47,829 nt of DNA, taken from assembly GCA_027623015.1 (NCBI GenBank), contig JAQBVR010000007.1:1-47829 (forward strand). The letters run 5' to 3'. Positions 3,980 to 22,758 of this stretch are shown here, piece after piece. Below the pieces are notes generated by a model. The model searched no databases, was not told the DNA's origin, and saw nothing but the letters and a program-made list of their open reading frames with translations. The DNA is from a bacterium (GTDB lineage Bacteria > Patescibacteriota > Gracilibacteria > Peribacterales > Peribacteraceae). The first letter of the stretch is position 1. The number at the start of each line of letters is the position of its first letter. The position numbers were made by a program, and so were the translations under genes.

Positions 3980-4576
3980 TTAACTTCTTAGGATCCTTTC
4001 TTTTCCTTCCGAGAGATCAATAACCTTCGATGATGGCATTTTGGGCAATTCTCCACTATCAATGATGAAATCAGGAATCAGTCCTTGTGCCTGTATTTGT
4101 TCTATGGAGTAGGTGTTTGGTTGGCCGTGAATGTTTGCAGATGTTGTGCTGATGGGTTTGCCGAAGGCTTTTACTAATGTTTGGGCGGTTGGGTGGGAGG
4201 AGATGCGGATGCCTATAGTTGCGGGTTGCGGGCCTGCCCCTCGTAGCCTTGGCATAGTGGGGTTGCGGGTTGCGGGTTTAACTTTCAGGGTGTTGTCTTT
4301 TGCACGCAATATTATAGTCAGTGGCCCTGGTAGATATTCATCTGCAAGTTTCTGTGCGGGATCATTCCATTCTATGTATTGCTTTGTTTGATCAACTGAT
4401 TCAAATAATGCGCTGACGGGCATGTGTTCTGGTCGCTGCTTTAGTGCAAAGAGTTTGGCTACTGCTGCAGGGTTGCTCAGGTCACACGCAAGCCCATAGC
4501 AGGTTTCTGTAGCATGTGCGACGATGCCTCCAGACTCAAGAATGCGTACTGCTTCGGTAATTATATCTGCAGTCAT
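3980..4576 (-). CDS. tsaC: L-threonylcarbamoyladenylate synthase (Sua5/YrdC)
   Basis: A 198-residue YrdC-domain enzyme that makes threonylcarbamoyl-AMP for the t6A37 modification of ANN-decoding tRNAs. Family motifs are visible: GGIVAHATETCYGLACD, KQRPEHMPVSAL, YLPGPLTIIL and STTSANIHGQ. TsaB, a later factor in the pathway, is encoded at 30761. Residues about 101-119 (PATRNP ... GPQPA) have no place in the family. They come from a GTTGCGG heptad block inserted between the LTIIL strand and TIGIRISSHP. The start lies 3 nt after the dnaE stop. TACACT ends 7 nt before the ATG, so it may also have its own promoter. Confidence 0.93.
   Translation of the reverse strand: MTADIITEAVRILESGGIVAHATETCYGLACDLSNPAAVAKLFALKQRPEHMPVSALFESVDQTKQYIEWNDPAQKLADEYLPGPLTIILRAKDNTLKVKPATRNPTMPRLRGAGPQPATIGIRISSHPTAQTLVKAFGKPISTTSANIHGQPNTYSIEQIQAQGLIPDFIIDSGELPKMPSSKVIDLSEGKERILRS
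4218..4275. repeat. GTTGCGG heptads inside tsaC
   Basis: Two pairs of GTTGCGG (4218-4231 and 4262-4275) flank about 30 bp with a palindromic feel. The block is in frame and adds roughly 19 residues to TsaC. The same heptad occurs inside dnaE and murG. Confidence 0.8.
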
Positions 4577-4579
4577 AGA

Positions 4580-7500
4580 TTACAGTGTAGTTGTAACATA
4601 TTTTTCCATCACCTCTGCGATCTTCTTTTCTAATATGGTCGATGTACTGATAGTGAGTGGGAGCGAGACAGTCTGTTCACCAATTTTGAGTTGCACCTTC
4701 TCTTTGCCTGGGAAAGTTTCGAGTACATGCTTGAGGTCGAGAAGCATCTTCTTTGGTGCTCTTTCGGGGAGGTCGATAGTATAGACACTGATTTGTGTTT
4801 TTGAGTTGGGGGTTGTGGGTTGCGGGTTTTGTATGTCATTTGTTTTATTTGGGATTTGGGATTTGGGATTTGGGACTTCATCTGCCTCTTTATTGTTTTG
4901 CAGCAATCCTAGTTCACTCATTATTTTATCTACAGGCATGCCGTCAGATATCCATTTAGCGATGGGGCCAACCAATTCTTCTGTTACCACAGGACTTTTT
5001 TTTTCTACAGTAATAGTCTCACCTGCTATTACATTTCCTTCTTCATCTATTGCGTCTACAGCGTCAATTTCGTTATCTTCTAGCGATACTGCTCTCGTAA
5101 TTCTGATGCCATTCTTTGCCTCTTCTTCATCATAAAATCCAGATTTTTTTGCGTTGTCTATGACACGAGTGAGCTTCGTACTTTTTATGCTATCGGCCCG
5201 TACTTGCAATTGGCCTGCGCGTAGGTCGAGTGCGCCATCGATGACAAGGAATGTATTTGCATCTTCTATGTGCTCCGCAACTTCTGCATATGTTCGTGGG
5301 AACAGGGTTACTTCTATCTTTCCAGTAGGGTCTTCGAGAAACAGTATTGCCATTGTGTCTCCTTTTTTAGTTGTAATCTTTTTAATACCTTCCTGTATAC
5401 CTGCAAGTTTGACCTTCTTGCCCACCTCTTTTTGCGTTAGATTCCCGATGAGCTGCGCCTTTTTCCCTATGTATTTCTTCAGTCCGGCAAGTGGGTGACT
5501 CGATACATACATACCAAGGGTTTCTTTTTCCCATTGTAGTTTCTCTAGAGGGCTTGCAGGATCTGTCTCGGGAAATTCTATCTTTGCTTCAGATTCAGGA
5601 TCCTCCATGCTAGCAAAGAGGTCAGTTTGCGTACTACTTACATCGCTACAAGCCTTGGCATAGTCGGTGATGTGTACAAGAGTTCGCCTTTCGCCAAGTG
5701 AATCTAGCGCTCCTGCCTTTGCCAGTGCGTCGACAGTTTTTTTATTGATGATTTTCGCAGGGACCCGACTAGCAAAATCTTCTAGGCTACTGAACTTTTC
5801 ACCCTGCTCACGCACTTCGATGATCTGCTGTACAGAGCTATCCCCGATTCCTTTGATTGCTGTAAGTCCAAATCGAATAGCACACTCCTTTGGCATCGCA
5901 GTGAAGTGGCGTAGGGATTCATTGATATCTGGTGGAAGAACTTCTATGCCCATCTCTCGACATTCTTCGATCTCGATCATCACCCTATCTGTTCGTTGTG
6001 CGTCGCTACTGAGGAGGGCGGACATAAATTCCACAGGGTAGTGTGCTTTGAGATATGCAGTTTCATAGGCAATGCGTGCGTAGCCAGCAGCATGTGATTT
6101 GTTAAATCCATACCCAGCAAATGGCGTGATGACATCATCGAATATTTTCTCAGCAAGAGCTTTGTCATAGCCTTTTTCCATTGCACCTGCGATGAACTTT
6201 TCACGTTGAGCATCGAGCTCAGATTTAATCTTTTTACCAATGGCTCGCCGTAAGATGTCTGCACTGCCAAGGGAAAATCCTGCAAAGACCTGAGCGATCT
6301 GCAAGATCTGTTCTTGGTAAATGCCAATACCGTATGTCGGTTCGAGGATTGGTTTTAGATCATCGTGGATGTACTTCACCTTTTCTTTACCGTGTTTACG
6401 TTTGATGAAACTTGGGATGTACTCCATCGGACCAGGTCGATACAAAGAGACCATAGCAGTGATGTCGCCAAATACTGTTGGCTTGAGTTGTTTTAGGTAT
6501 CTACGCATGCCTCCGGACTCCAGCTGGAATACTCCAGTCGTTATACCTCGTTGTAATAACGCGTATGTTTCGCTGTCATCTATGGGGATATTTGCAATAT
6601 CTAGTTCCTTACCTTCGGTACGCTCGATAATCTCCAGTGTTGTCTGAATAACCGTTAAGTTCATAAGTCCTAGGAAATCCATCTTTAGAAGACCAAGAGC
6701 CTCAAGTGGTTTAGCAGATGACTGTGTAATGATCGTCTGATCGTCCTTGGGCGCTCTTTGCAGTGCGGTGTAACACACGGTTGGTTCTTCAGTAATGATC
6801 ACTCCACATGCATGTACAGACACGTGACGAGCCTTCTTCTCAAGCTTGAGAGCAATATCAATAATCTTTTTGTAGGTTTCATTGGTGTCGTATGCAGACT
6901 TCAATTCTTGCGTTTCAAGCGCTTCGTCGAGTGTGGTACCAGGGCGTTCGGGTATGAGTTTGGCGAGAGAGTTCATCTCCAAAAATGGCACACCATACGC
7001 ACGACCTACATCTTTTACTGCAGCTCTCGCTGCCAGTGTTCCAAATGTGCAGATCTGTACAACTTTATCTTCACCGTATTTTTCGCGCACATAATCCAAC
7101 ACTTCATCTCTACGGTTATCGGCAAAGTCTATATCGAAGTCCGGCATAGATATACGTTCTGGATTGAGAAATCGCTCGAAGAGCAGTCCGTGTTCTATGG
7201 GGTCTAGACCTGTGATCTTCAGGCAGTACGCGATCATCGATCCTGCAGCAGACCCACGTCCAGGCCCTACGGTGATGCCCCGACGCTTTGCTTCGTTGAC
7301 GAAGTCTGACACGATCAAGAAGTATCCTGCAAAGTCGACTTCTTCGATGACTTTTAACTCGTATTCCAAGCGGTCACGATGTTCCTGTGTCGGGTTTTTA
7401 TACTGTTTAGCGAGTCCTTCCGTTGCAAGTTCCCGTAGATATGCAGCTTCTGTTTTTTTGTCTGGAACAGGAAATCTTGGGATCCGGTATGTGCCAAAAT

Positions 7501-8338
7501 CTAGTTCTATGTTGCATCGGTCTGCTATAACTTTCGTATTTTCGAGTGCCTCTGGTACGTGCGCAAATATCTTTTCTATTTCTTCGTAGGGGCGCATAGA
7601 GAAGTCGCTATCTCTCATGGAAAATCTGCTGGGGTCATCAACATGAGCATTCTTTTGTATGCATAGCAATACATCATGCGCTTCTGCATCCTCTGGTTTG
7701 CAATAGTGGGCATTGCAGGTGGCTACTAGTGGTACATTCAGTTCCTTTCCCCACTTGATAAGCTGCTGATTGATTTCGGATTGTCCGTTTACATTTGGTA
7801 GATCCATAAGCTCGAAGTACAGATTGTCTTCGCCGAAGAACCCACGGTATTGCTCTACGAGTTCCTTGATCCTCTCTCCATCTTCTGCGAGTGCAGCTTG
7901 GGGTATTGCGCCACTCATAGGTCCAGATAGCGCTATTAGGCCCTTGCCGTAGTTCTCTAGAAGCTCAGCGTCGACGCGCGGCTTGTAGTACATGCCCTCA
8001 AGTGCTGCCTTTGTCGCTAGCTGTAGTAGGTTCTGGTAGCCTTCTTGTGTTTCTGCCAGAAGAACGAGAGGGTAACGTTTCGTGTCTGTGCCGCTTTCTT
8101 TGTCGTGGCGTGTCCGACGTGCTACGTATGTTTCAAGTCCTAGAAGCGGCTTCACCTTATGTTTGAGAGCGCATTGGTAAAACTCTGTCAGTCCATAGGT
8201 GTGCCCCTTGTCTGTGAGACCTACGGCAGATTGTCCTAGTTCTTTTGCACGTAATACGATCTCTTCAGGGCTTGGTAGAGCCTCGAGTAGAGAGTACGTA
8301 GAATGGCAGTGCACGTGAACGAAATCCTCTTTTTTCAT
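4580..8338 (-). CDS. dnaE: DNA polymerase III alpha subunit
   Basis: The 1252-residue replicative polymerase. An N-terminal PHP domain (about 5-275) precedes the PolIII palm with GPGRGSAAGSM and PDFDIDFADNRRDEV, which supplies the catalytic aspartates. Then come FQLESGGMRRYL and SLYRPGPMEYIP, a helix-hairpin-helix region and an OB fold near 1000. The PHP site keeps HVHCH but changes several usual metal ligands: TDKG for TDHG, SGPMSGAIP for SGCLxxEIP, MDLPN for NHGLP, and CNAH for NDGH. The domain is therefore probably catalytically dead. Residues about 1155-1178 come from heptad repeats. CATAAT lies 5 nt before the ATG. tsaC follows after 3 nt. Confidence 0.96.
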   Translation of the reverse strand: MKKEDFVHVHCHSTYSLLEALPSPEEIVLRAKELGQSAVGLTDKGHTYGLTEFYQCALKHKVKPLLGLETYVARRTRHDKESGTDTKRYPLVLLAETQEGYQNLLQLATKAALEGMYYKPRVDAELLENYGKGLIALSGPMSGAIPQAALAEDGERIKELVEQYRGFFGEDNLYFELMDLPNVNGQSEINQQLIKWGKELNVPLVATCNAHYCKPEDAEAHDVLLCIQKNAHVDDPSRFSMRDSDFSMRPYEEIEKIFAHVPEALENTKVIADRCNIELDFGTYRIPRFPVPDKKTEAAYLRELATEGLAKQYKNPTQEHRDRLEYELKVIEEVDFAGYFLIVSDFVNEAKRRGITVGPGRGSAAGSMIAYCLKITGLDPIEHGLLFERFLNPERISMPDFDIDFADNRRDEVLDYVREKYGEDKVVQICTFGTLAARAAVKDVGRAYGVPFLEMNSLAKLIPERPGTTLDEALETQELKSAYDTNETYKKIIDIALKLEKKARHVSVHACGVIITEEPTVCYTALQRAPKDDQTIITQSSAKPLEALGLLKMDFLGLMNLTVIQTTLEIIERTEGKELDIANIPIDDSETYALLQRGITTGVFQLESGGMRRYLKQLKPTVFGDITAMVSLYRPGPMEYIPSFIKRKHGKEKVKYIHDDLKPILEPTYGIGIYQEQILQIAQVFAGFSLGSADILRRAIGKKIKSELDAQREKFIAGAMEKGYDKALAEKIFDDVITPFAGYGFNKSHAAGYARIAYETAYLKAHYPVEFMSALLSSDAQRTDRVMIEIEECREMGIEVLPPDINESLRHFTAMPKECAIRFGLTAIKGIGDSSVQQIIEVREQGEKFSSLEDFASRVPAKIINKKTVDALAKAGALDSLGERRTLVHITDYAKACSDVSSTQTDLFASMEDPESEAKIEFPETDPASPLEKLQWEKETLGMYVSSHPLAGLKKYIGKKAQLIGNLTQKEVGKKVKLAGIQEGIKKITTKKGDTMAILFLEDPTGKIEVTLFPRTYAEVAEHIEDANTFLVIDGALDLRAGQLQVRADSIKSTKLTRVIDNAKKSGFYDEEEAKNGIRITRAVSLEDNEIDAVDAIDEEGNVIAGETITVEKKSPVVTEELVGPIAKWISDGMPVDKIMSELGLLQNNKEADEVPNPKSQIPNKTNDIQNPQPTTPNSKTQISVYTIDLPERAPKKMLLDLKHVLETFPGKEKVQLKIGEQTVSLPLTISTSTILEKKIAEVMEKYVTTTL
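4584..4589 (-). promoter_or_regulatory. Possible -10 box of tsaC
   Basis: TACACT with 7 nt to the ATG at 4576. It overlaps the last codons of dnaE, so an operon transcript is equally possible. Confidence 0.4.
4809..4875. repeat. Two heptad arrays inside dnaE
   Basis: A GTTGTGG/GTTGCGG block at 4809-4828 and four exact copies of TTTGGGA at 4848-4875, separated by about 20 bp. They are in frame and encode the low-complexity stretches NPQPTTPN and NPKSQIPN near the C-terminus of the polymerase. Confidence 0.85.
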
Positions 8339-8343
8339 AGGAG

Positions 8344-8349
8344 ATTATG
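8344..8349 (-). promoter_or_regulatory. -10 box of dnaE
   Basis: CATAAT with 5 nt (CTCCT) to the ATG at 8338. Confidence 0.55.
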
Positions 8350-8410
8350 CTACAACATGAATGGGTTTTTGTCGAAAGCTTTGTTTTTCTTAGTGTGTTT
8401 CAATGGGTCA

Positions 8411-8490
8411 AAGGGGGCACTGGGAACCAGTGGGCAAAAGGAGCTAACGGGCCAAACCCAAATATACACCTTTACCCCTTGTCCCCCTTT
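8411..8490. repeat. Inverted G-rich/C-rich arms between the secreted operon and dnaE
   Basis: AAAGGGGG near 8411 faces CCCCCTTT at 8483-8490. The arms are extended by loosely heptad-spaced GGG and CCC runs. The hairpin begins at the stop codon of the 531-aa gene and may serve as its terminator. Confidence 0.45.
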
Positions 8491-10084
8491 ATTCTATCCC
8501 CTCTGTTACTTTTGCAGCGCTTCTACACATTTCATGGTGTGTTGGATTGCCGACAAACGATCCGTCTGTGTACGGGAAGCACACATCTTTGAAGTTGATC
8601 TTGAGTATGTGATCAAGTTGCTTGGTACAAGTGCGGTAGATGCATGATCTTCTGAGGTACCATCCTAAACCACGCGTGAATTTTCGTGCACCTACTTCCT
8701 GCTTCGATGCATAGCGAGAGAAATCTCTCATGACCGTTCTCAGTGGCTTTAACATTGTAGTTATTTGCAGCTGAGCATCTGTAGATTGCATGATAGCCGT
8801 TGCCTCTTCTCCCATTTGTTCTATATTCCAACGCTTAAAGTAATCTCTCATGAACCAGCGAATGAAACTCTTTGAACTTCCTAGTATTGATTCACGCGCT
8901 TCGGCATCTGTGAACTCAGTTGAGCCATCGATATACTCGTTTGGGAATTTGAGATAATCCGCTTGTTCGCGCAGTGCACCCCATGCACGTAATTGATAGA
9001 ACAGTCCATGTAAGAGTGCTGGTTCGTTTTTCGAAAGATTGAACGGTCCTCGTAAGGCTATCCGCGCTGCGCCTTTAGGAAATTCATTTGGTGTGTCGGT
9101 ATCGATGCGTGCTGCTTCAAGCACGTCTCCGTCGAATCGGTTGCACCCTATACGTGTACGATGAGTCCGTTCCGATTCTCTGCCCTTGAGGAAGTCGTCG
9201 AGTCTGTCTTGGATATCGGACGTATCTCTTCCCAATGATGTGAGAATGGCAAGAGTTATGTCTCGTATGTAGTCTACATTGTTTAAAAAGTCGTCGCGTG
9301 CATCTATAAAAGCAGCCATTCCGTCTCGTTCTGCGACAGCATAGACACGTCCTCCATCTGCTATATCGTTTAATATACCCAAGTCACAACCGTATCCTGC
9401 TCCAGTAGGAGGAAGATAATCAGAGTGAAAAGGGCACATGATTTGCTCCTCTGGTTCGGGGTCTGGCTTGTCGCAACTGTGTGCTTCGCAGGATTTCCAT
9501 GATGCCAGTGGATTACCCTTATTTTGTAAGCATGTTACCCGGTCTCCTAGTACGCAATTTAACCCCTCTGACTTGTTGCAGCACCACCCATCTTCATCGA
9601 AGCTATAGAGCCAGTGGTAATATTCGTCTTCGTATAGGGGATCTGTTCCACCTCTGATGAGTTGGTTGTAGCGCGCGTTAAGGAATCTTGCGAGTGACTG
9701 TAGACGGAAGATGTCTCCTATGCGCTTTTCCTCAAATGCAGTGAGGATCTCTTGGCGCACGAGCTCTATTTCTTCTTCCATGAGGATAAGATCATAGTGG
9801 TAACATGCCGTGATATTTACCAAGTCGCGTTGGTATTCAACTATACGTAGTTTTGTATCGACAAGCTCAAGAAATACACCAGTGAGCTGGCTGAGCCAGT
9901 TGAAAAAAACAAAGTGGAAGTCGCTGACCGATGCAGCACTTTGGGAGTTTGCAATACCTTGGTTTGCACGGTCGAGCACATCTTGAACGTAGTGGTCAGA
10001 GACTGCTAGATCATGAAAGGCGTACGTCTGGAGTGGTGTTCCAGCGAGTAGTAAGCCAATGAGTAGTGTACTAATCTTTTTCAT
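8489..10084 (-). CDS. Secreted cysteine-rich protein, last gene of a five-gene operon
   Basis: A 531-residue protein I do not recognise. It begins with a clear Sec signal peptide (MKKISTLLIGLLLAGTP, likely cleavage after YA at about 22) and has no other membrane segment. The middle is cysteine-rich (CCNKS, CLQNKG, CEAHSCDK, CPFH, YGCDLG). A helical C-terminal part ends with SCIYRTC, and more cysteines lie nearer the end, so disulfide bonds outside the cell are likely. Its ATG shares one base with the TAA of the upstream gene (TAATG), implying translational coupling. No Shine-Dalgarno sequence is seen. It sits between the metalloprotease-like gene and dnaE. A part in a surface or secreted complex with its four neighbours is an inference. 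Confidence 0.85.
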   Translation of the reverse strand: MKKISTLLIGLLLAGTPLQTYAFHDLAVSDHYVQDVLDRANQGIANSQSAASVSDFHFVFFNWLSQLTGVFLELVDTKLRIVEYQRDLVNITACYHYDLILMEEEIELVRQEILTAFEEKRIGDIFRLQSLARFLNARYNQLIRGGTDPLYEDEYYHWLYSFDEDGWCCNKSEGLNCVLGDRVTCLQNKGNPLASWKSCEAHSCDKPDPEPEEQIMCPFHSDYLPPTGAGYGCDLGILNDIADGGRVYAVAERDGMAAFIDARDDFLNNVDYIRDITLAILTSLGRDTSDIQDRLDDFLKGRESERTHRTRIGCNRFDGDVLEAARIDTDTPNEFPKGAARIALRGPFNLSKNEPALLHGLFYQLRAWGALREQADYLKFPNEYIDGSTEFTDAEARESILGSSKSFIRWFMRDYFKRWNIEQMGEEATAIMQSTDAQLQITTMLKPLRTVMRDFSRYASKQEVGARKFTRGLGWYLRRSCIYRTCTKQLDHILKINFKDVCFPYTDGSFVGNPTHHEMCRSAAKVTEGIE

Positions 10085-12546
10085 TAGATATCGACGATGC
10101 GTTCACACATCTCTGTGGGGAAGTTTACATCGCCAAGTCCTTTGAGTAGGTCATCTGTTGAGTGCATGATTTCTTCGAAGGCGCGTACTGCGGTGGAGAA
10201 GTACAGTAGGTACACATTTGTACCAATGCGTGAGCCGACACCAGGTGCAAGGATGCTCAATGCATGGTGCTCTAACTGTTGTTCAAGTGGTTGGTCGTTG
10301 AGACTTTGCCATGTAGCAAGAAGATTGTAGGTTTGTCTGCTTAGTCTTCTGCGTACATCAAATGCACATTTTATAGGAGGGAAGAGTTTGGGTAGACCGT
10401 TGACTTGGCATAGTGCGTTGTCGAGTTCTTGCACTAAGGTATAGGGGCGATACGGTGGAAAGGGCACGCTTAAGTCAGGAGAAGAGAGGAAGAATGCTCC
10501 AAGGTTTGGGTCTTTACCAGCTTCGCTTTCATAGGGGAAGTTTTCTCCTTGTACAGTAGTTGTCCATCGTCCAGGGATGAGCTTATGTCCTTCGAGAGAC
10601 TGCTCTACACATTGTCCGATAAAGCAGAGGTTATTGCCAATCGTATTGAGGAACTTCGTCTGGCAATCTGGAGAGCACACGAGTGGCATAGAGTTGATCA
10701 TTTTTTGCGCACGTGGATCGAGATTGTTTACTGCCTCTTCACAGGTGTCTGGCAGACCAATCTCTGCATAGTTATCCTCGATGTACTGGGTTGTCTCATC
10801 GTAGATTATCTGTGCGTCGAGGTCTGGGTTGTTGCCAAAATCTGAACAAGAGCCTGGTCCTCCGCAGCTGAAGTCAGAAAATGCAGCAGCACACACATCG
10901 ATGCTATACCCCAGAGCTGGGAGTATGCCGTCTTCTGCCATTGCTCCGCATGAAGCGAGATACGCTTGATACTCTGTGGCACAACAACCCTCTGTGGTGT
11001 CATAGGATTCTACCCATCCATTTTCATATCCAGGTGGTAGATTACAGTGCTGTTGCGCATGCACCACTTCGTGGATGATCAGGTATCGTGAGTTTTTTCC
11101 GATTCCCCCAATACATGTTTTTATGCGGTTGGGATTCGTTGGATTTCCAGATTCATCATATCCTTTTGGTGCGCTGAGGCCTTCTTGCGGTGTACCAGTA
11201 CAACCACAGACAAGGTCGACATAGCAATTGCTACATGCTCCTGGATCTACATCTACTTCTTCACCTGGTGTATCTACAAAAGCCTCTGGGCCACTTGCAC
11301 CTGCTATCGTTGGTCCTTCTGTAAAAGATCTCCAACCTCCTTCTTGGCACATATTTGGCCCTGACTCTGTTCTCCGTTGTGAAGATAATAGGTTTGGTGC
11401 TTTGCAGCCAGTGAGGAGAATCTGTTCGTCGGTAACTTCTGTGTCGAGTATCGGAGGGCAGACTGCAGAGACGCGATCACGACAGAGGTAGCCACTTTTA
11501 TCAAAAGGATGTGAGCACAGCATGGTGCCAGCTTCTGGATCTTCAAGTTCACCAGGATAGGTTCCACCAAGAATGGCGCCGTCTACACATTCTTCTGGTG
11601 TTTCGTAGCTATCGCTACAGTCAAGTGATGGCAAGATGTTGTCGACAGGTACTTCCCAGCCTAGTCCTACGTCGTCTTGGCGAGTCCAGACATAGATGTT
11701 GAGATCTTCAAATTCCTGTATGGGAAACAGTGCTAGTTCTCCAGTGTTGAGTGGTGGATCAAACACTACAGCGGAGGTGTCTGCATAGATGTCGAGTAGC
11801 GCGTCTTCTACATCACACCATCTGGCTGTCATAAACTGTAGTTCCGTTCCATCGCCTTTGCCATCTTGTCCGGCATCACAATCTGCTGATGCAACGATAC
11901 GTTGGTGGCCATTGCGATAACGCCACACTGCTGCGATAAGTTTTTCTTTATCTTCTTTATCTCCAGATTCATCTAGTGCTGTTAATGCTGTTTCTAGTGT
12001 GGTGAATTTTGTCTCCATAGCTGCAGGGTCGTCAAATACAACACCGCGTGCTTTGGATTCTACAAATGGGCTCATCTGTACAGCAGTATCTGCCTGCCAG
12101 ATTTTGAGGATGCTTGGTAGTCGAGATGCGATAGCAACGGTTCTTCCAGGGTAGCTGTCGATACCTATCTCGTAACCTCCTGTGATGTACTGCCATTCAC
12201 GGATCTGCATGCGTAGCCATGTGTTGCGTCGCACAAGATCGATAACTTGGTCACGGTATCCTTGGCAATATGTAGGATTATCGGGCTTGTCGTCGTCTTC
12301 TGTTCTACAGATTTCAGAGTCTCGCTTTTGGAGGGCCTTATCTACATCGCTTTCCTCTAGTTCTATGAGAGAGTCGGGGTAGATCTTTGCGAGGAATTCT
12401 TCGATAGGCTTTTCTGCTTCTTTCATTGCCGCTTCCTGCAGTGTAAATGCTTTGATGCGTTCATACAGCGTGGCATCCAGTGCGTGCACAGGTGCGGCTT
12501 GTAGGAGCAAGCTGAGGCCGATGGCAATAGGGGTATAGTGCATCAT
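10084..12546 (-). CDS. Secreted HEVVH metalloprotease-like protein
   Basis: An 820-residue protein. The preferred start is ATG 12546, which overlaps the TGA of the upstream gene (ATGA). This puts a signal peptide (IAIGLSLLLQAAPVHALD) at the N-terminus; the open frame continues upstream but only lengthens it inside the neighbouring gene. Residues 492-496 are HEVVH in a hydrophobic LIIHEVVHAQQH helix, the zinc-binding and general-base pattern of zincins. A Glu at 525 (CCATEYQAY) is well placed for the third, gluzincin-type ligand. More than 25 cysteines lie around this core, so the mature protein is probably extracytoplasmic and disulfide-bonded. The large N-terminal helical region and C-terminal part are unrecognised. 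Protease activity is inferred from the motif alone. Confidence 0.8.
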   Translation of the reverse strand: MMHYTPIAIGLSLLLQAAPVHALDATLYERIKAFTLQEAAMKEAEKPIEEFLAKIYPDSLIELEESDVDKALQKRDSEICRTEDDDKPDNPTYCQGYRDQVIDLVRRNTWLRMQIREWQYITGGYEIGIDSYPGRTVAIASRLPSILKIWQADTAVQMSPFVESKARGVVFDDPAAMETKFTTLETALTALDESGDKEDKEKLIAAVWRYRNGHQRIVASADCDAGQDGKGDGTELQFMTARWCDVEDALLDIYADTSAVVFDPPLNTGELALFPIQEFEDLNIYVWTRQDDVGLGWEVPVDNILPSLDCSDSYETPEECVDGAILGGTYPGELEDPEAGTMLCSHPFDKSGYLCRDRVSAVCPPILDTEVTDEQILLTGCKAPNLLSSQRRTESGPNMCQEGGWRSFTEGPTIAGASGPEAFVDTPGEEVDVDPGACSNCYVDLVCGCTGTPQEGLSAPKGYDESGNPTNPNRIKTCIGGIGKNSRYLIIHEVVHAQQHCNLPPGYENGWVESYDTTEGCCATEYQAYLASCGAMAEDGILPALGYSIDVCAAAFSDFSCGGPGSCSDFGNNPDLDAQIIYDETTQYIEDNYAEIGLPDTCEEAVNNLDPRAQKMINSMPLVCSPDCQTKFLNTIGNNLCFIGQCVEQSLEGHKLIPGRWTTTVQGENFPYESEAGKDPNLGAFFLSSPDLSVPFPPYRPYTLVQELDNALCQVNGLPKLFPPIKCAFDVRRRLSRQTYNLLATWQSLNDQPLEQQLEHHALSILAPGVGSRIGTNVYLLYFSTAVRAFEEIMHSTDDLLKGLGDVNFPTEMCERIVDI

Positions 12547-13310
12547 CCGTCTTCGATATCGCGGAGAACATCTCGTGCATCCCACACACGTGGGAGGCAC
12601 ATAGCGGCGTCGGCTCCCAGAGCGAGGGCATTGCGCAGATCAAGCGAGCCGCGTTGTAAGCATTGGAGTTCTGCATCTATGGGTCCGAGTCTTCCTATTC
12701 CACTTACGACCATGAGAGACCTTTCTAGCGATGGTCGAGAGATAGCAAACTCTTCCATCATCTTTATCCGTCGTGCTCCCATCTCTGCTGCGACACTCAT
12801 CAGGGAAAATCCTCTGATAAATTGTAAAGGAGGACCTCCGCCTGCTGCTTCTTCAAATTTTTGTGTGATGATGTCTATAGGTAAAAAGAAGTTGTGGTCC
12901 GTCATTGCACATTCATACGTACGGAGATATTCCAGTAGTACTGATCCGATATCTGTGCGCTTGAGTTTTGCAAATTCATCTGGCTCCGCCCATGGAGGCA
13001 AGCTCCGTGCAATTCTTCCTATGGCAGATCCAGCACTCACAGGAAGCAAGTTGTCTTGCGTACATTTTATCTCTTCTGCTGGCTTGATATATTCCTCTAT
13101 AGCAGCGCTTATTTGCTCATGGTAGATATCGTCCCAATCTTCGAACTGCATATTTAGGAAGTCTGCAACGTCTGTGTAGCGGTCTTCATATCGTGAACAT
13201 GGAGCAAGTATAGGGTAGCGTTGACCAACTTCTGGTGCAGCTTTGACAGTAGGTATTGCGCTTATGAGAAGTGCACAAAGTGTTATGAGAGATGTCGTGG
13301 GGTTTCTCAT
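12543..13310 (-). CDS. Secreted protein, third gene of the secreted operon
   Basis: A 255-residue protein with a signal peptide (TSLITLCALLISAIP, cleavage near VKA|AP at about 24). The mature part is mostly alpha-helical with five cysteines (PCSRYED, KCTQD, YECAM, LQCLQ, AMCLP). No known domain is visible. Its ATG follows the upstream TAA directly (TAAATG), and its own TGA overlaps the next start (ATGA), so it is embedded in the operon. No Shine-Dalgarno sequence precedes it. Confidence 0.8.
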   Translation of the reverse strand: MRNPTTSLITLCALLISAIPTVKAAPEVGQRYPILAPCSRYEDRYTDVADFLNMQFEDWDDIYHEQISAAIEEYIKPAEEIKCTQDNLLPVSAGSAIGRIARSLPPWAEPDEFAKLKRTDIGSVLLEYLRTYECAMTDHNFFLPIDIITQKFEEAAGGGPPLQFIRGFSLMSVAAEMGARRIKMMEEFAISRPSLERSLMVVSGIGRLGPIDAELQCLQRGSLDLRNALALGADAAMCLPRVWDARDVLRDIEDG

Positions 13311-14111
13311 TTAAGGAGCGAGAGGTGGATATGCGTCACAACTTGCGACAAAACATGGGATTCGGTTTAGTCCTCCTATGAGATTTATTACATCGCGAAG
13401 CGTGGAAATAAGAGGAAGTCGAAATTCCTGTAAGAATAGATCAAAGTTTCCTGCAAACTGTAAGACAGTGCGATAGGCAGCATCATAAGAGATTGCCATA
13501 GAGATGATGCCTGCTTCTTGTTCGAGCATTTCTTCTACAATTTTTGGGCAGTATCCTAGAGTGTCTGCTTGATCTCCAAGGTTAGTTTTTTTGTTTGCGA
13601 AATGGCATTCCGGAAAAGTCTCTACATCTTTTTTTATGCACCCAAGTGCGGATACCGTGATATTTTGTGGAACATCTTCAGCGTAGTTCATCGATTGCAT
13701 TTGTTGGTCACATATCAACGATAGGTTGCATTGGAATGCGCGCATGCTCTGACCAATATATGGAATAAGATTTGATGTAAGGACTCCTCGTGTTTCGAAG
13801 AATCCACGTCTATTCCCACCAGGGGTTTGCGCATCCATATCAAAATCTGTGAATGGGAAATCCACAGCGGTGCTCCTCCATTCGTTTTCTGCAACTTTGT
13901 ACCATGCTCTATCTATGAAATCGATGCGCACTTCACCTATGCCTGCTTCTTCCGCTTTTTTTACACCAAAAACTACACCGCGAAAGATCGCGTGTTCCTT
14001 CTGTATTTCTTCATGAAGAGCATTGCGACAGACGTCTGCATCTATGCGTTGTCCTTGTGCAGAAGGAATCTGGGCTATAAGAAGGCCGGTAATAATGACG
14101 ATGTTAAGCAC
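13311..14111 (-). CDS. Secreted protein, second gene of the secreted operon
   Basis: A 266-residue protein starting at a GTG that shares a base with the TAG of the preceding gene (TAGTG). A short signal peptide (LNIVIITGLLIAQIPSAQGQ) leads into a helical, cysteine-containing domain (DVCRN, FQCNLSLICD, LGCIKKD, PECHF, GYCPK). It ends with a hydrophobic helix and IPCFVASCD. The size, single export signal and paired cysteines resemble the 255-aa neighbour, but I see no convincing sequence repeat between them. Function unknown. Confidence 0.8.
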   Translation of the reverse strand: MLNIVIITGLLIAQIPSAQGQRIDADVCRNALHEEIQKEHAIFRGVVFGVKKAEEAGIGEVRIDFIDRAWYKVAENEWRSTAVDFPFTDFDMDAQTPGGNRRGFFETRGVLTSNLIPYIGQSMRAFQCNLSLICDQQMQSMNYAEDVPQNITVSALGCIKKDVETFPECHFANKKTNLGDQADTLGYCPKIVEEMLEQEAGIISMAISYDAAYRTVLQFAGNFDLFLQEFRLPLISTLRDVINLIGGLNRIPCFVASCDAYPPLAP

Positions 14112-17100
14112 TATGAGGAGCTGGAGGAACTAGAAGAGCTATGGACAGGAAGGAGGTTTATAGTGGGGCGTACTTCAAATGCTGGTGTCATCTCATTTGG
14201 TGTAACGATGAATTTCTGTAAGTCTTCATCGGCTACACCTTCTCTTAGGAGATTTTCTTCAAACATATCCACACGCAGATTATTTATTAGGTCGTCTTGC
14301 AGTGTATCTGCTGGCGTGCGGATAGCCCATCCGTGTTGTGGTTCATACGTGAAGGGTCGCTGGAGAAGGCACGCCCAGTCTTCTCGAGGACAGTAGTCTA
14401 CGTCGTTGTATTCGGGCGCACGTTTTTGACCGTAGGATTCGAAGTCTTCTTTTAGTGTAACCCCTGGCCTAGCGCAGATGCGCTCAAGACGTGACAAGAG
14501 GTCCATCTCCACGTGTACACATGTATCGAGGTATACACTAACGCAGTCTTTTTCCGTCCCTTTAGGGTCTACAGTTTCGGGGTCTATCTTTACGCTTTTC
14601 CAGAATCTTCCGTAGGAATAGTCCATGAGAAATACGAGATCCTCGATACGGTCGAACACAGCAGCGTCTACGAGAGGGGCAGTACCAGGGAAGTACGACG
14701 TAAGGTCTGGTGGTGGGTTTTCTACCAGCACATCGGGGAAGTCAGCAGCAGTTATACCATCTGCGATCGTTGGTATTGGGGGAAGGGCTGGTGGTAGTTT
14801 CTCTAGAATATCATCGATGATTCTAGGATCTGCTTTTGTCGAAGGTACAGTGAGAAGAAATGGACTCAATCGAACTTGAATTGGTTTCAGTACAGGAAGT
14901 CGTATTGCACCTGTTGCAGTACGGATCATCGAGAAGTCCAATACCACGTCTCCAAGTCTTGAGACACTAAAGCGGGGAAGAGTAAGAGGGTTGAGGCCCT
15001 CAACTGCTCCGTCTATGCCACCATCGAGCAGAGGTCTACCTGGAAGCCAGGGTGTACCACCCCCATCGTCGAGCAGGGAGAAAATTGGTGGTAAGAACCG
15101 CATATTCATGCACCATGGAAGATTGGTTTTGTCGTGGAATTTTCTGTAACGAAGCTGAATTTGCTGCCAGCGAAAACGGAGTTGCTCGAGGGCACTTATC
15201 GAGTTCTGGAAACTTATGTATTGCTGGAGTGAGTTATTGAGCCAGTTGCCTATTGTACTAATAAGCTCGTTTTGTTGTACAAGCAAAAGTGCTTCGTAGG
15301 TTGCAAGTTCTCCACGCAATATACGAATGTCATCCATGCGGTCGGCATACTCTTCTAGGCGCTCTACGAGAGGTGCTACAGTGCCATCACATTTTTCTGT
15401 TTTATCGCGCTCCATTTCCCAGCTACACCATGCCTGCGCGATAGAGCGGTACTCTAGTGGGTCGCCAAATGGTACGACGACTGGTACGGGTTCTTCAAGG
15501 ACGCGGAGTACGAGTGAGCGTTCCATGTATGCTGCAACTTCTCCAAGAAGATCCTCTCTTGCCTCAAGCATCACCTCGATGGGTTGGTCACGAGGGTTGT
15601 CTCTGTCTTCTGCGAGGATAGGGTCTGTTGGATCTTCGGGGTCGGGTATATCTGGTGTGAAGAGAGGGTCAAGAGGGTCGAGGCCGACAGACCATGTCGG
15701 AGGTAGCTGTAGACGTACCTGTGGAGTATTAAACAGATTGTGTGCTTCTGTTTCGAGTTCTTGCCACCATTCTACTAGCGTACGTCTCTGTGGTCGTAGA
15801 GAAGTGACGGTGTCATCCATTGCGCGTAAGTACGCGCCACTGGAGTAGAGATTTTCCAGTGTTAACTGTGGGTAAGCACGGTGCTCAGATGTGTCTGGAG
15901 TAAGCAGGGCAAAAGAGAGGTCGCTGCCGAAGTCATCTTCAAAGACCTTTCCATTGAGGAGAGAAAAGCCTCCACCAAGATTTGGGTACCAGAGATCATC
16001 ATCATTTGTGTAGGTGGGGTTGCGAATGATGTGGTAATCCTCAGGGACGCGTGAGTCTGGTAGGTCTGGCCATATGTTATCGTCCTTACTTTTTTTGCCA
16101 TACTCCACTTGGTCGTCGAGGCTCCAGTCATTTTTCTGCGAATCTTTCATATCCCAGAGGTGGTTGGATTCGTATGATGTCGCGATGACACAATTTTGCT
16201 GGTACCACTCTGAGACGACGAGCATCGGGTCGTAGTCAGCGCCTGTGAATTGAACTCCGTAGAATCCGTAGCATGCTACTGGTATGGACGGACGCGTACG
16301 ATCATCATCCGGAACGCCTGGGACAGCTTCTGGCATGAAGCAGCTTGCGTCGTATTCACGAAAGTAGGAGTAGTACGGTGCCGGGCCGGGTTCAGGCCCC
16401 GTTTGTGGTGGTTGCCCTTGGCAGTCTGGCCCTGTGCATGTTCGGCAGTTCATCTCTTCTGGTGGGGCCATAGTTCTGCCATCTGCTGTAGCTTCTGCGC
16501 TAAGATCTACGTTTGCATTGGTACAGCATTGCATAGACCTATAGTAATTCCAGACACAGTTGTAGTACGGAAGCACTGCCGCAGGGTCTAGCGGTTCTGG
16601 GTCAGGTGGCTCATCGTCTACATCTAAATCCCAACACGACGTATTTGCATACGTCAACCCTTTGAATGTCACCGTTATGGTCGTAGTTCCTCCAGGGGGA
16701 TCTGGCAATGGTATTACGATGTCTAGATCGCACTGCAAAGAGTATTGTCTGTAGTTCCAACGGCGAGTCAGATCTTCACAGAGTGCATCGCATGTCCACT
16801 GCACACCATGATCAAGAGGATCAGTTGTGTCGCAATTTGCAGTTGCTGGCTCTGTTGTATCTGCGCCCGGCGGGCCAATCTTTGGATGGGGATCATCGCA
16901 TGCTTTACTATCTGGTTTGTAGATACTTGGATTGCCATCTTCACCCCTTGGCCGCTGACAGGAAAAGAACTCATAAAACGATGGCCACCCTGGTCTGCAT
17001 GCAGAGGTAAATCCATCTGCATCTGCAGGGTATTCAAATGGTGTGCCAGGAATACGGATGCCCATACCACTTTTTATATCTCCAAGTGGATCGTATCTGT

Positions 17101-17338
17101 GCCCGGGGACACCATTGACGACTGCCATCTTTGGTACGACTTCAGATTCATAGTTCCAACCACCACAGTGTGCTTGAGATAGGTCGTCTTCTATCTCTGA
17201 AATTGCAGTATTTACACCTTTTATATCTCCAGGGTTTTCTTGTACAGTAAGCGCTTGCCCAACCGATGGTAGAGCGAGACCTGCCAGTGCACACACAGTG
17301 AGAAATTTATAAATCGTACAATAAGGGTAGGGTTGCAC
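14111..17338 (-). CDS. Large secreted cysteine- and proline-rich protein with poly-Ser tail
   Basis: A 1075-residue protein, first gene of the operon, starting at GTG. A signal peptide (FLTVCALAGLALPSVGQA) ends near residue 30; a GTG at codon 15 would still leave a usable one. Residues about 50-380 are rich in Cys, Pro, Gly and aromatics (CCTNAN, CRTCTGPDC, CSWEMER further on). Two long helical stretches follow (about 590-730 and 890-960), with a proline-rich segment between them. The protein ends in nine serines encoded by mixed codons, so this is not simple slippage. No anchor or sortase motif is present. TTGAAT-16-ATATAT at 17389-17416 could be its promoter; AAGGAGGAG lies about 30 nt upstream of the start, too far to be a ribosome site. 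Confidence 0.8.
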   Translation of the reverse strand: MQPYPYCTIYKFLTVCALAGLALPSVGQALTVQENPGDIKGVNTAISEIEDDLSQAHCGGWNYESEVVPKMAVVNGVPGHRYDPLGDIKSGMGIRIPGTPFEYPADADGFTSACRPGWPSFYEFFSCQRPRGEDGNPSIYKPDSKACDDPHPKIGPPGADTTEPATANCDTTDPLDHGVQWTCDALCEDLTRRWNYRQYSLQCDLDIVIPLPDPPGGTTTITVTFKGLTYANTSCWDLDVDDEPPDPEPLDPAAVLPYYNCVWNYYRSMQCCTNANVDLSAEATADGRTMAPPEEMNCRTCTGPDCQGQPPQTGPEPGPAPYYSYFREYDASCFMPEAVPGVPDDDRTRPSIPVACYGFYGVQFTGADYDPMLVVSEWYQQNCVIATSYESNHLWDMKDSQKNDWSLDDQVEYGKKSKDDNIWPDLPDSRVPEDYHIIRNPTYTNDDDLWYPNLGGGFSLLNGKVFEDDFGSDLSFALLTPDTSEHRAYPQLTLENLYSSGAYLRAMDDTVTSLRPQRRTLVEWWQELETEAHNLFNTPQVRLQLPPTWSVGLDPLDPLFTPDIPDPEDPTDPILAEDRDNPRDQPIEVMLEAREDLLGEVAAYMERSLVLRVLEEPVPVVVPFGDPLEYRSIAQAWCSWEMERDKTEKCDGTVAPLVERLEEYADRMDDIRILRGELATYEALLLVQQNELISTIGNWLNNSLQQYISFQNSISALEQLRFRWQQIQLRYRKFHDKTNLPWCMNMRFLPPIFSLLDDGGGTPWLPGRPLLDGGIDGAVEGLNPLTLPRFSVSRLGDVVLDFSMIRTATGAIRLPVLKPIQVRLSPFLLTVPSTKADPRIIDDILEKLPPALPPIPTIADGITAADFPDVLVENPPPDLTSYFPGTAPLVDAAVFDRIEDLVFLMDYSYGRFWKSVKIDPETVDPKGTEKDCVSVYLDTCVHVEMDLLSRLERICARPGVTLKEDFESYGQKRAPEYNDVDYCPREDWACLLQRPFTYEPQHGWAIRTPADTLQDDLINNLRVDMFEENLLREGVADEDLQKFIVTPNEMTPAFEVRPTINLLPVHSSSSSSSSS

Positions 17339-17531
17339 ATATCTTAGCGTTTCTTGTTGTGTGTTCCTAGCTCCTCCTTATTACACACATATATTTTTAT
17401 ATTGATTACCATTCAATAAAATATTATTGCTGACAATCTTAGTTCCTTGCAAAATAGCTTCGAGGGTGTACAGTCGTCCACGTCACGAAATTGCTAGTGG
17501 CATCCTTTAATTCTATTTCCCCATTCAGTGT
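17339..17531. promoter_or_regulatory. Divergent promoter region between the secreted operon and ssb
   Basis: An AT-rich 193-bp spacer. On the minus strand TTGAAT (17416-17411) and ATATAT (17394-17389), 16 bp apart, are a possible promoter for the secreted operon, with a leader of about 50 nt. On the plus strand TTTAAT near 17507 could serve ssb with a short leader. Neither fits the strict leaderless spacing seen elsewhere. Confidence 0.35.
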
Positions 17532-18413
17532 ATGTATTCATACAATCGTGTTCAAATCATCGGTTATCAGACTCAACCAGTCGAAGTTCGTCAGACCCCA
17601 ACAGGGACAAGCGTGACGGATTTAAATTTAGTTGTTCCCTATGTTTTCCGAAGTGAAAACGGCGAGATGCTTCAGGGTAAAGGTTTTCATACCGTTACTA
17701 TCTGGGGGGCTATGGCAGACGTAGCAGGTCAGTACCTAAAAGCTGGTGCTCAAGTATTTATCTCCGGTCGTATGCAGACCGATAGCTGGGATGACCAAAC
17801 CAGTGGCGAGAAGCGCAGCAAGACCAAGGTCGTTGCGATGGATATGATCCTTCTTGATCCAAAAGATGGTCAGCATCCAGCGCCAGAAGGTGCAAAGGAG
17901 ATCGGTGGCTCTGTGAACCGTGTAGACATCATTGGGAACTGCACGCGTGATCCTGAGATGCGTACGACAACCAGTGGACAACAGGTGCTCACTATTGGTG
18001 TAGCGACCAATGATCGCTGGAAAGATAAAGCATCTGGAGAAGACAAGGAGCGTTCAGAGTTTCACAACGTTGTGATCTGGGGCGACCTTGCTACAGAAGT
18101 AAATCTTCACATCAAAAAAGGACATCGTCTCTTTGTCTCTGGACGTGTGCAAACACGAAGCTGGGAAGCGAAAGATGGTTCCAAGAGATACACTACAGAA
18201 GTCATAGCAGAGACAGTTCGTCTCCTTGGAGTCAAAAATGCAGCTGCTTCTGAGTCGGTATCTGCTTCTGCATCTCCTGTACAAAGAGAAGCTTCGCAAG
18301 AGTCAGTTGCACCTACAACAGAGGGTGTCGCTCCTGCTCCAACAGAAGAACCTGTAGCTGTGCCAAGTGTTGAGTACGCATCGGAGATCAAGGTTGAAGA
18401 TCTGCCTTTCTAA
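17532..18413 (+). CDS. ssb: Single-stranded DNA-binding protein with two OB folds
   Basis: A 293-residue SSB in which the OB domain is duplicated: residues 1-108 (VQIIGYQTQPVEVRQ ... VFISGRMQTDSW) and 127-225 (VDIIGNCTRDPEMR ... LFVSGRVQTRSW). A disordered Ser/Ala/Pro/Glu linker (about 235-280) leads to the acidic tip VEDLPF, the usual docking site for replication and repair partners. Ordinary bacterial SSB has one OB fold per chain and forms tetramers. The two-fold arrangement resembles Deinococcus/Thermus SSB, which works as a dimer. A strong hairpin at 18437-18475 ends the transcript. Confidence 0.95.
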   Translation: MYSYNRVQIIGYQTQPVEVRQTPTGTSVTDLNLVVPYVFRSENGEMLQGKGFHTVTIWGAMADVAGQYLKAGAQVFISGRMQTDSWDDQTSGEKRSKTKVVAMDMILLDPKDGQHPAPEGAKEIGGSVNRVDIIGNCTRDPEMRTTTSGQQVLTIGVATNDRWKDKASGEDKERSEFHNVVIWGDLATEVNLHIKKGHRLFVSGRVQTRSWEAKDGSKRYTTEVIAETVRLLGVKNAAASESVSASASPVQREASQESVAPTTEGVAPAPTEEPVAVPSVEYASEIKVEDLPF

Positions 18414-21675: not shown

Positions 21676-22758
21676 ATGCAGATCTATACAGGACAAGAAT
21701 TGGAGCGGTTTCAGTCAGGACTCGATATGGTTCCAGATAGTGAGGTGATAACTGCGCCTGAGCATTTTCGTGATGATCGATTGGGTATTCGACGTGGTAT
21801 TGAATACACACTTGGCTTTCCAGCTACTGTAGGTGAAAATAGCCGTACGACATTTTGGAATGAGCCAATGGATCTAAGCATATCTCCAACAGCAGGAGAT
21901 GCTGTTCCTCGTACTATTCATAACGGGCGATCGTATACAAGAATATTATCGAATACAGACGTAGGAATGCACAATATTCGAATGGGACACTTGGGGATCC
22001 TTGAGCACCCCAGTGCAGTTGCTACAGCCCTTGGTATACGTTTTGATATACGAGCAGAGACGCAGAAGCCATCGCTAGGTCTGCACCGTGCTATGCAAGC
22101 CGTGGGAGTTGCAGAGGATGTGGCGTCTCTTCCTACGTTTCCAAATATGGCTGAGCCGTACCTCGATGCGATGGAAGGGAATCTATATCCTATTGGCGAT
22201 ACAAATTTCATCACAGTGAATGAGCCTGTAGGTTTCGAGATGGACGAATCATATATCGTTATGGAGCCAGATGATGGTGACGGAAGGCTACTTATTGATC
22301 ATCAGATTTCCTACCCACAGAATCCTGCAATAGGTACACAGCGCATAGTGGCAGACATCACTCCAGAGTTTTTTGCATTCATCGCTAGTGCGAGAACACC
22401 GGCATTTGGTATGCGTTCAAAGCTTGCACAGCTTGTAGGAAAGTTTGGTCCAGAAGCCACATTCCCTTATACGGCACTGGGCATGAGTAACATCGTTGCT
22501 GTTGGGACAGATGGTATCGTAAATCCCAATACAAAGTTCGATACTGGTGACCACAATCTTGAAGTGCTTTGCCACGAGCTTATCGACAAACTTGGTTGGC
22601 TTGAAGCAATTGAGAATCAGTATGGTGGGAGGTTTGCAGGACGCATAACAACATTTTGCACAAACCATGCGCGAGATATAGAAGTCGCTCGTGCTATTTG
22701 TGAGCAAGATTTAATAATCCCGATGTCTATTGGTGTACAGCAGAGGAGAGTTGCGTAG
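21676..22758 (+). CDS. LpxC-like metal-dependent deacetylase
   Basis: A 360-residue protein whose C-terminal two thirds follow the LpxC pattern (UDP-3-O-acyl-GlcNAc deacetylase). Visible correspondences are LEHPSAVATALG at 109-120 for the EH(L)LAAL helix, DITPEFFAFIASARTPAF at 227-244 for the TPEF..ARTF segment, CHELIDKLG at 299-307 for the RHKxLDxxGD zinc site, and FCTNHARD at 327-334 for the catalytic-His GHxxN. The ligand pair His300 and Asp304, His111 and the general-base Glu110 all seem present. No other lipid A gene lies in the window, so its substrate may be another GlcNAc-containing glycan. TAGAAT lies 9 nt before the ATG. The family assignment is from motifs read by eye. Confidence 0.65.
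   Translation: MQIYTGQELERFQSGLDMVPDSEVITAPEHFRDDRLGIRRGIEYTLGFPATVGENSRTTFWNEPMDLSISPTAGDAVPRTIHNGRSYTRILSNTDVGMHNIRMGHLGILEHPSAVATALGIRFDIRAETQKPSLGLHRAMQAVGVAEDVASLPTFPNMAEPYLDAMEGNLYPIGDTNFITVNEPVGFEMDESYIVMEPDDGDGRLLIDHQISYPQNPAIGTQRIVADITPEFFAFIASARTPAFGMRSKLAQLVGKFGPEATFPYTALGMSNIVAVGTDGIVNPNTKFDTGDHNLEVLCHELIDKLGWLEAIENQYGGRFAGRITTFCTNHARDIEVARAICEQDLIIPMSIGVQQRRVA

Follow-up and report, generated by a model that had tools for sequence, protein, structure and literature searches.

Five consecutive genes (A to E) in a 47,829-nucleotide stretch of patescibacterial DNA, here called the window, are co-inherited as a unit within Candidatus Peribacteraceae, in a fixed order and a fixed genomic slot, with invariant cysteines, exchange of modules and an identity below that of the neighbouring genes. 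The explanation that we favour, tentatively and at a little under an even chance, is that their products form a lineage-specific surface complex, made rigid by disulfides and fitted with exchangeable modules, which would contact other cells or their surfaces. It is from sequence that we infer the physical complex, its surface position, the disulfides and the contact function. The bacteria of this group are tiny, uncultured inhabitants of groundwater. The features of the window that concern us are the following.

4580..8338, minus strand: dnaE, one edge of the slot
8339..8488, no strand: spacer between E and dnaE; the same interval holds a type IV prepilin gene in five other genera
8489..10084, minus strand: gene E, 531 aa, predicted to be exported, 8 invariant Cys
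About residues 165-217 of E: swap site, occupied by a 6-Cys mini-domain in the window copy
10084..12546, minus strand: gene D, 820 aa; zincin cassette between constant N and C domains
10717..11289, minus strand: zincin cassette inside D, HEVVHAQQ-x-C ... CCATE, distantly M76-like
12543..13310, minus strand: gene C, 255 aa, 5 invariant Cys; putative signal peptide or N-terminal membrane anchor
13311..14111, minus strand: gene B, 266 aa, predicted to be exported, 8 invariant Cys
14111..17338, minus strand: gene A, 1075 aa, predicted to be exported, 28 Cys, Ser-rich C-terminal tail
17339..17531, no strand: divergent intergenic region between A and ssb
17532..18413, plus strand: ssb, the opposite edge of the slot

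All five open reading frames lie on the minus strand where an earlier note on this DNA had placed them, and the lengths it gave (1075, 266, 255, 820 and 531 residues) are correct, if the ATG overlapping C's stop codon is taken as the start of D (with the GTG further upstream, at 12600, D has 838 residues). The frames are coupled as described there, through TAGTG (A/B), TAAATG (B/C), ATGATG, that is, an ATGA overlap (C/D), and TAATG (D/E). For a promoter of A, there was a single promoter-like match (9/12, at 17452-17423, minus strand), which is within chance expectation. Elsewhere in the window, an LpxC-like gene (21676-22758, plus strand) matches the C-terminal part of the PF03331 profile at 2.3e-10, in this case in a patescibacterial genome.

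Most homologues of each of the five families begin with an N-terminal hydrophobic core, mostly followed by [AVS]xA, as judged by a heuristic applied to the N-termini and not by SignalP; this supports the Sec export proposed earlier, and by the same heuristic the N-terminus of C often resembles an uncleaved anchor. Cysteine makes up 2.4-3.8 % of each protein versus 1.17 % across the 19 other proteins of the window, so that the many cysteines claimed for every member hold as an enrichment of the set, although B and C have just 8 and 6. Across the family alignments cysteines are the best-conserved residues, nearly invariant throughout and 100 % invariant at all eight positions in B, five in C, eight in E and several in A. 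Purifying selection was evident in one same-genus pair (dN about 0.06-0.08, dS about 0.8-1.0), which together with the near-invariant cysteines places A-E far from chance open reading frames. The median identity to the window proteins is 31-34 % for A-E, compared with 70 % for dnaE and 65 % for ssb, and this fast divergence would also fit weak constraint on ordinary envelope proteins. A ends in a poly-serine tail (14114-14143, minus strand), and A or B ends likewise at several other loci; these tails are possible targets of O-glycosylation. No clear VKOR gene was found in most of the genomes tested.

The loci were surveyed by profile searches on stop-to-stop frames, and the homologues were placed in Candidatus Peribacteria/Peribacteraceae (Patescibacteria) by scanning named genomes. 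Within the window's family the profile of E matched 38 of 44 genomes, and in the 198 other genomes of the class it had no match; the profile of B matched 14 of 380 genomes of the phylum, every one within Peribacteraceae; beyond the family, no homologue was seen in those 198 class genomes with profile E or in about 366 phylum genomes with profile B. The idea that the genes are phage or plasmid cargo found no support, as D had no relative in phage and plasmid collections by tblastn. In 41 of 48 homologous loci, spread over 31 genera, the genes stand in the order A-B-C-D-E, all on the same strand, their frames coupled or overlapping, so the arrangement seen in the window is kept in its relatives; the other seven loci are contig ends or the divergent genome G039. 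The slot is fixed as well, between a divergent ssb (adjoining murB) and dnaE. The operon is absent from three lineages (g6, g8 and g24), and in operon-less genomes dnaE and ssb lie close together (26 bp apart in G007, 77 bp in G005, 98 bp in G042 and 764 bp in G023), so that it is present or absent as a whole. On the dnaE+ssb tree, presence and absence require at least two changes of state, and the pairwise distances of each of A-E track those of dnaE, which fits vertical descent. We also observed that the DnaE of the operon-less G005, G007 and G042 matches that of the window only to about residue 1,140, the alignment showing a gap before the final 65-70 residues. Given the fixed order, joint loss and joint presence, the multi-protein extracellular complex suggested in the earlier note would be the most economical reading, as far as sequence can tell.

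The absence of a recognised family stood up to wider searches. For the scaffolds (A, B and C, plus what is constant in D and E) no family was found with A-E in Pfam, NCBIfam or PHROGs, nor with every member of A, B, C and E in Pfam, and PDB profile searches gave nothing significant over them; they match no secretion, pilus or conjugation system, and co-occur strongly in relatives. The AlphaFold model of B (pLDDT 81) is mainly helical and has no PDB match, while that of D is poor overall (pLDDT 55) with a better zincin region (70-89). Foldseek with the models of D and B gave no match at E <=0.001 and no recognised carbohydrate- or protein-binding fold; a Bacteroides zinc peptidase, considered as a structural relative of D, came at E 2.4 and has no evidential weight. 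By hhalign the N-termini of D and E are weakly similar (37.6-67 %) and A shows no similarity to D, and we do not claim a common ancestry for A-E. An apparent C-terminal domain of D in A was an artefact: two A proteins and one free-standing zincin protein had been included in the alignment of D.

The zincin-like HEVVH reported earlier is real (residues 510-514 of D in the 838-aa frame) and belongs to a cassette of roughly 190 residues between the constant N and C parts of D. In the cassette alignment H73, E74 and H77 are nearly invariant and E106 is invariant; the HExxH with its downstream Glu ligand is present in the window and in most other cassettes, not in all members. The nearest named relative appears to be peptidase M76 (ATP23-type, PF09768), at a distance. 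The cassettes share with it HExxHA, the following Cys and a CxxE pattern, but they stay below the cut-off in the members examined (best match E 4.3e-5, 23.8 bits against a Pfam cut-off of 25.2), have extra cysteines, are sometimes inactive and are embedded in a large exported protein. Four of 30 cassettes match M76 at E <=0.1, and that of the window has no PF09768 match. Thirteen members have a D without the cassette while A-E stay conserved, and in four distant loci (L037, L041, L043 and L047) it is found near the N-terminus of A. At least seven of the 30 copies in D have lost the HExxH, among them those of L029, L036 and L038 and those of L010, L011, L016 and L021, where the catalytic residues are gone and the cysteine frame is clearly retained. 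In the operon-less G005 the cassette is part of an unrelated stand-alone cysteine-rich protein of 1,076 aa (L048:9229-12459, plus strand), joined with DUF4215 repeats. To judge from this distribution, the zincin is an exchangeable accessory and not the core of the operon.

Zincins are not the only modules exchanged. The D protein of G039 (L077:8505-16376, minus strand) has 2,623 aa and 259 Cys, and consists mostly of DUF4215-type repeats, about 2,080 aa of GDG...CDDGN units preceding the usual C-terminal domain, which matches the constant C part at 1.4e-21; its N-terminal domain was matched weakly (E 0.0038). It matches DUF4215 (PF13948) above the Pfam cut-off, with 40.7 bits and in four stretches. 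One E member also matches this family, and residues 165-217 of E are, depending on the member, empty, a 6-Cys mini-domain or a DUF4215-like repeat. The cassette swaps in D and A and the swap site in E make the scaffold the constant element, with modules that vary; DUF4215 is accordingly a swapped module alone and not a part of the scaffold. Literature searches found no report of DUF4215 in Patescibacteria.

Some loci are also linked to pili. Five genera (g7, g9, g17, g20 and g38) have a type IV prepilin gene after E, at a distance of 15-50 bp in L009, L011, L016 and L026.

L009:6571-7056, prepilin gene
L010:6807-7256, prepilin gene
L011:12434-12919, prepilin gene
L016:242-727, prepilin gene
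L018:3958-4395, prepilin gene
L026:13416-13910, prepilin gene
L086:2412-2927, prepilin gene

These form an ortholog group that scores 244-265 bits (148 for the next-best pilin paralogues), and that was always found at the operon locus and nowhere else in 46 genomes. The protein has four conserved Cys and an identity of about 50-70 % between genera, far above the conservation of A-E. At L018, E and the pilin gene are separated by an inserted membrane H+-pyrophosphatase gene (4524-6665, minus strand). Two genomes of g3 have an E that carries, fused to its C-terminus, a T4SS_pilin domain with two TM segments (PF18895; L033:5652-7712 and the E frame of L034); the one scanned scores 36.6 bits, where the cut-off is 26.6. 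Among the genomes tested, PilC was present in 12 of 13 with the operon versus three of six without it. VKOR, ComEC, T2SSE, TraG and PilC were all considered as partners and set aside, as their presence does not strictly follow that of the operon.

A role with pili is possible in some lineages, and one could take A-E for accessory parts of type IV pili or similar filaments, such as a tip, an adhesin or a dedicated minor pilin complex. The locus-specific prepilin, the g3 fusion and the distribution of PilC all point that way, and the pilin gene inside the operon recalls the minor pilins of type IV pili and type II secretion. However, A-E have no match to an N_methyl/prepilin motif (Pfam over members) or to a pilin, the g3 fusion excepted; most genera, that of the window included, have no pilin at the locus, and the pilin may be one ancestral insertion. 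Besides, G028 (99 % complete) has the whole operon without PilC or a long PilB-type ATPase, with one shorter T2SSE match, and G005, G042 and G056 have pilus genes and no operon. As G028 does without PilC and the long ATPase while three operon-less genomes have PilC, a pilus is not a general requirement, and we consider the accessory role unlikely. F-type conjugation systems have sets of cysteine-rich exported proteins similar in number to A-E, and the five could be periplasm-like components of such type IV secretion, comparable to TraN, TraU and TraH. The g3 fusion would suit this too, as would the VirB4/TraG-type ATPases encoded somewhere in the genomes. But TraG-type matches are equally present in operon-less genomes (neither they nor ComEC separate the two sets) and lie on other contigs or far from the operon, and no member scanned matched TraN, TraU or TraH in Pfam; this seems very improbable.

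An extracellular protein-processing machine with the zincin as an essential part would agree with the HExxH and downstream Glu of most cassettes and with the sub-threshold similarity to M76. It is hard to reconcile with the conservation of A-E in the members whose cassette is missing from D or sits in A, and with the copies that have no HExxH; we give it little credence, and the processing of external protein put forward in the earlier note is unsupported as the core job, since in many members the zincin is not there at all, sits elsewhere, has given way to another module or is inactive. Somewhat less improbable, though still doubtful, would be a structural layer of the envelope, akin to an S-layer or associated with the wall, that plays no part towards partner cells. 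The proteins are disulfide-rich, predicted to be exported, vertically inherited and encoded next to housekeeping genes, and the models suggest helical scaffold proteins. Against such a layer stand the clean loss in at least two lineages, the swapping of modules, which is unusual for a lattice protein, and the lack of any S-layer domain match in Pfam over the members of A, B, C and E.

In the surface complex that we favour, A-E would pass through Sec, become oxidised once outside the membrane and assemble into a single structure restricted to Candidatus Peribacteraceae. The constant parts of D and E, together with A, B and C, would make up a disulfide-stapled scaffold, possibly anchored through the N-terminal helix of C, with outward-facing swap sites on E and on D (on A in some lineages). 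The zincin, 6-Cys mini-domain or DUF4215-type repeats held there would determine what is bound or cut, and the whole would serve contact with other cells or their surfaces. Large cysteine-rich exported proteins with a proposed role in attachment have been described in Ca. Peribacter riflensis (20 proteins, mean 1,655 aa, with a 14-gene cluster of 7.2 % Cys and weak similarity to Myxococcus cysteine-rich repeats; Anantharaman et al., 2016, PMC4736985). That set resembles A-E in lineage, export, cysteine richness, proposed role and, through the DUF4215 modules, in its repeats; by the published description it differs from A-E, in which Cys amounts to 2.4-3.8 %, the five genes make one fixed operon and most of the proteins are smaller. 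Our contribution is to define a unit of five genes that spans the clade, occupies a fixed slot and is cleanly absent at some sites, and to give evidence that the protease it carries is an accessory open to exchange.

It has long been asked how the ultra-small Patescibacteria recognise their partners and keep hold of them, and this operon is one compact, clade-wide and non-essential candidate for an answer. The lineages that naturally lack it and the natural swaps of its modules make it testable by comparison. It might even be, although we think this rather less probable than not, a new bacterial surface machine, in which a disulfide-stapled chassis of five proteins, confined to one patescibacterial family, would present partner cells with protease or repeat modules that can be interchanged.
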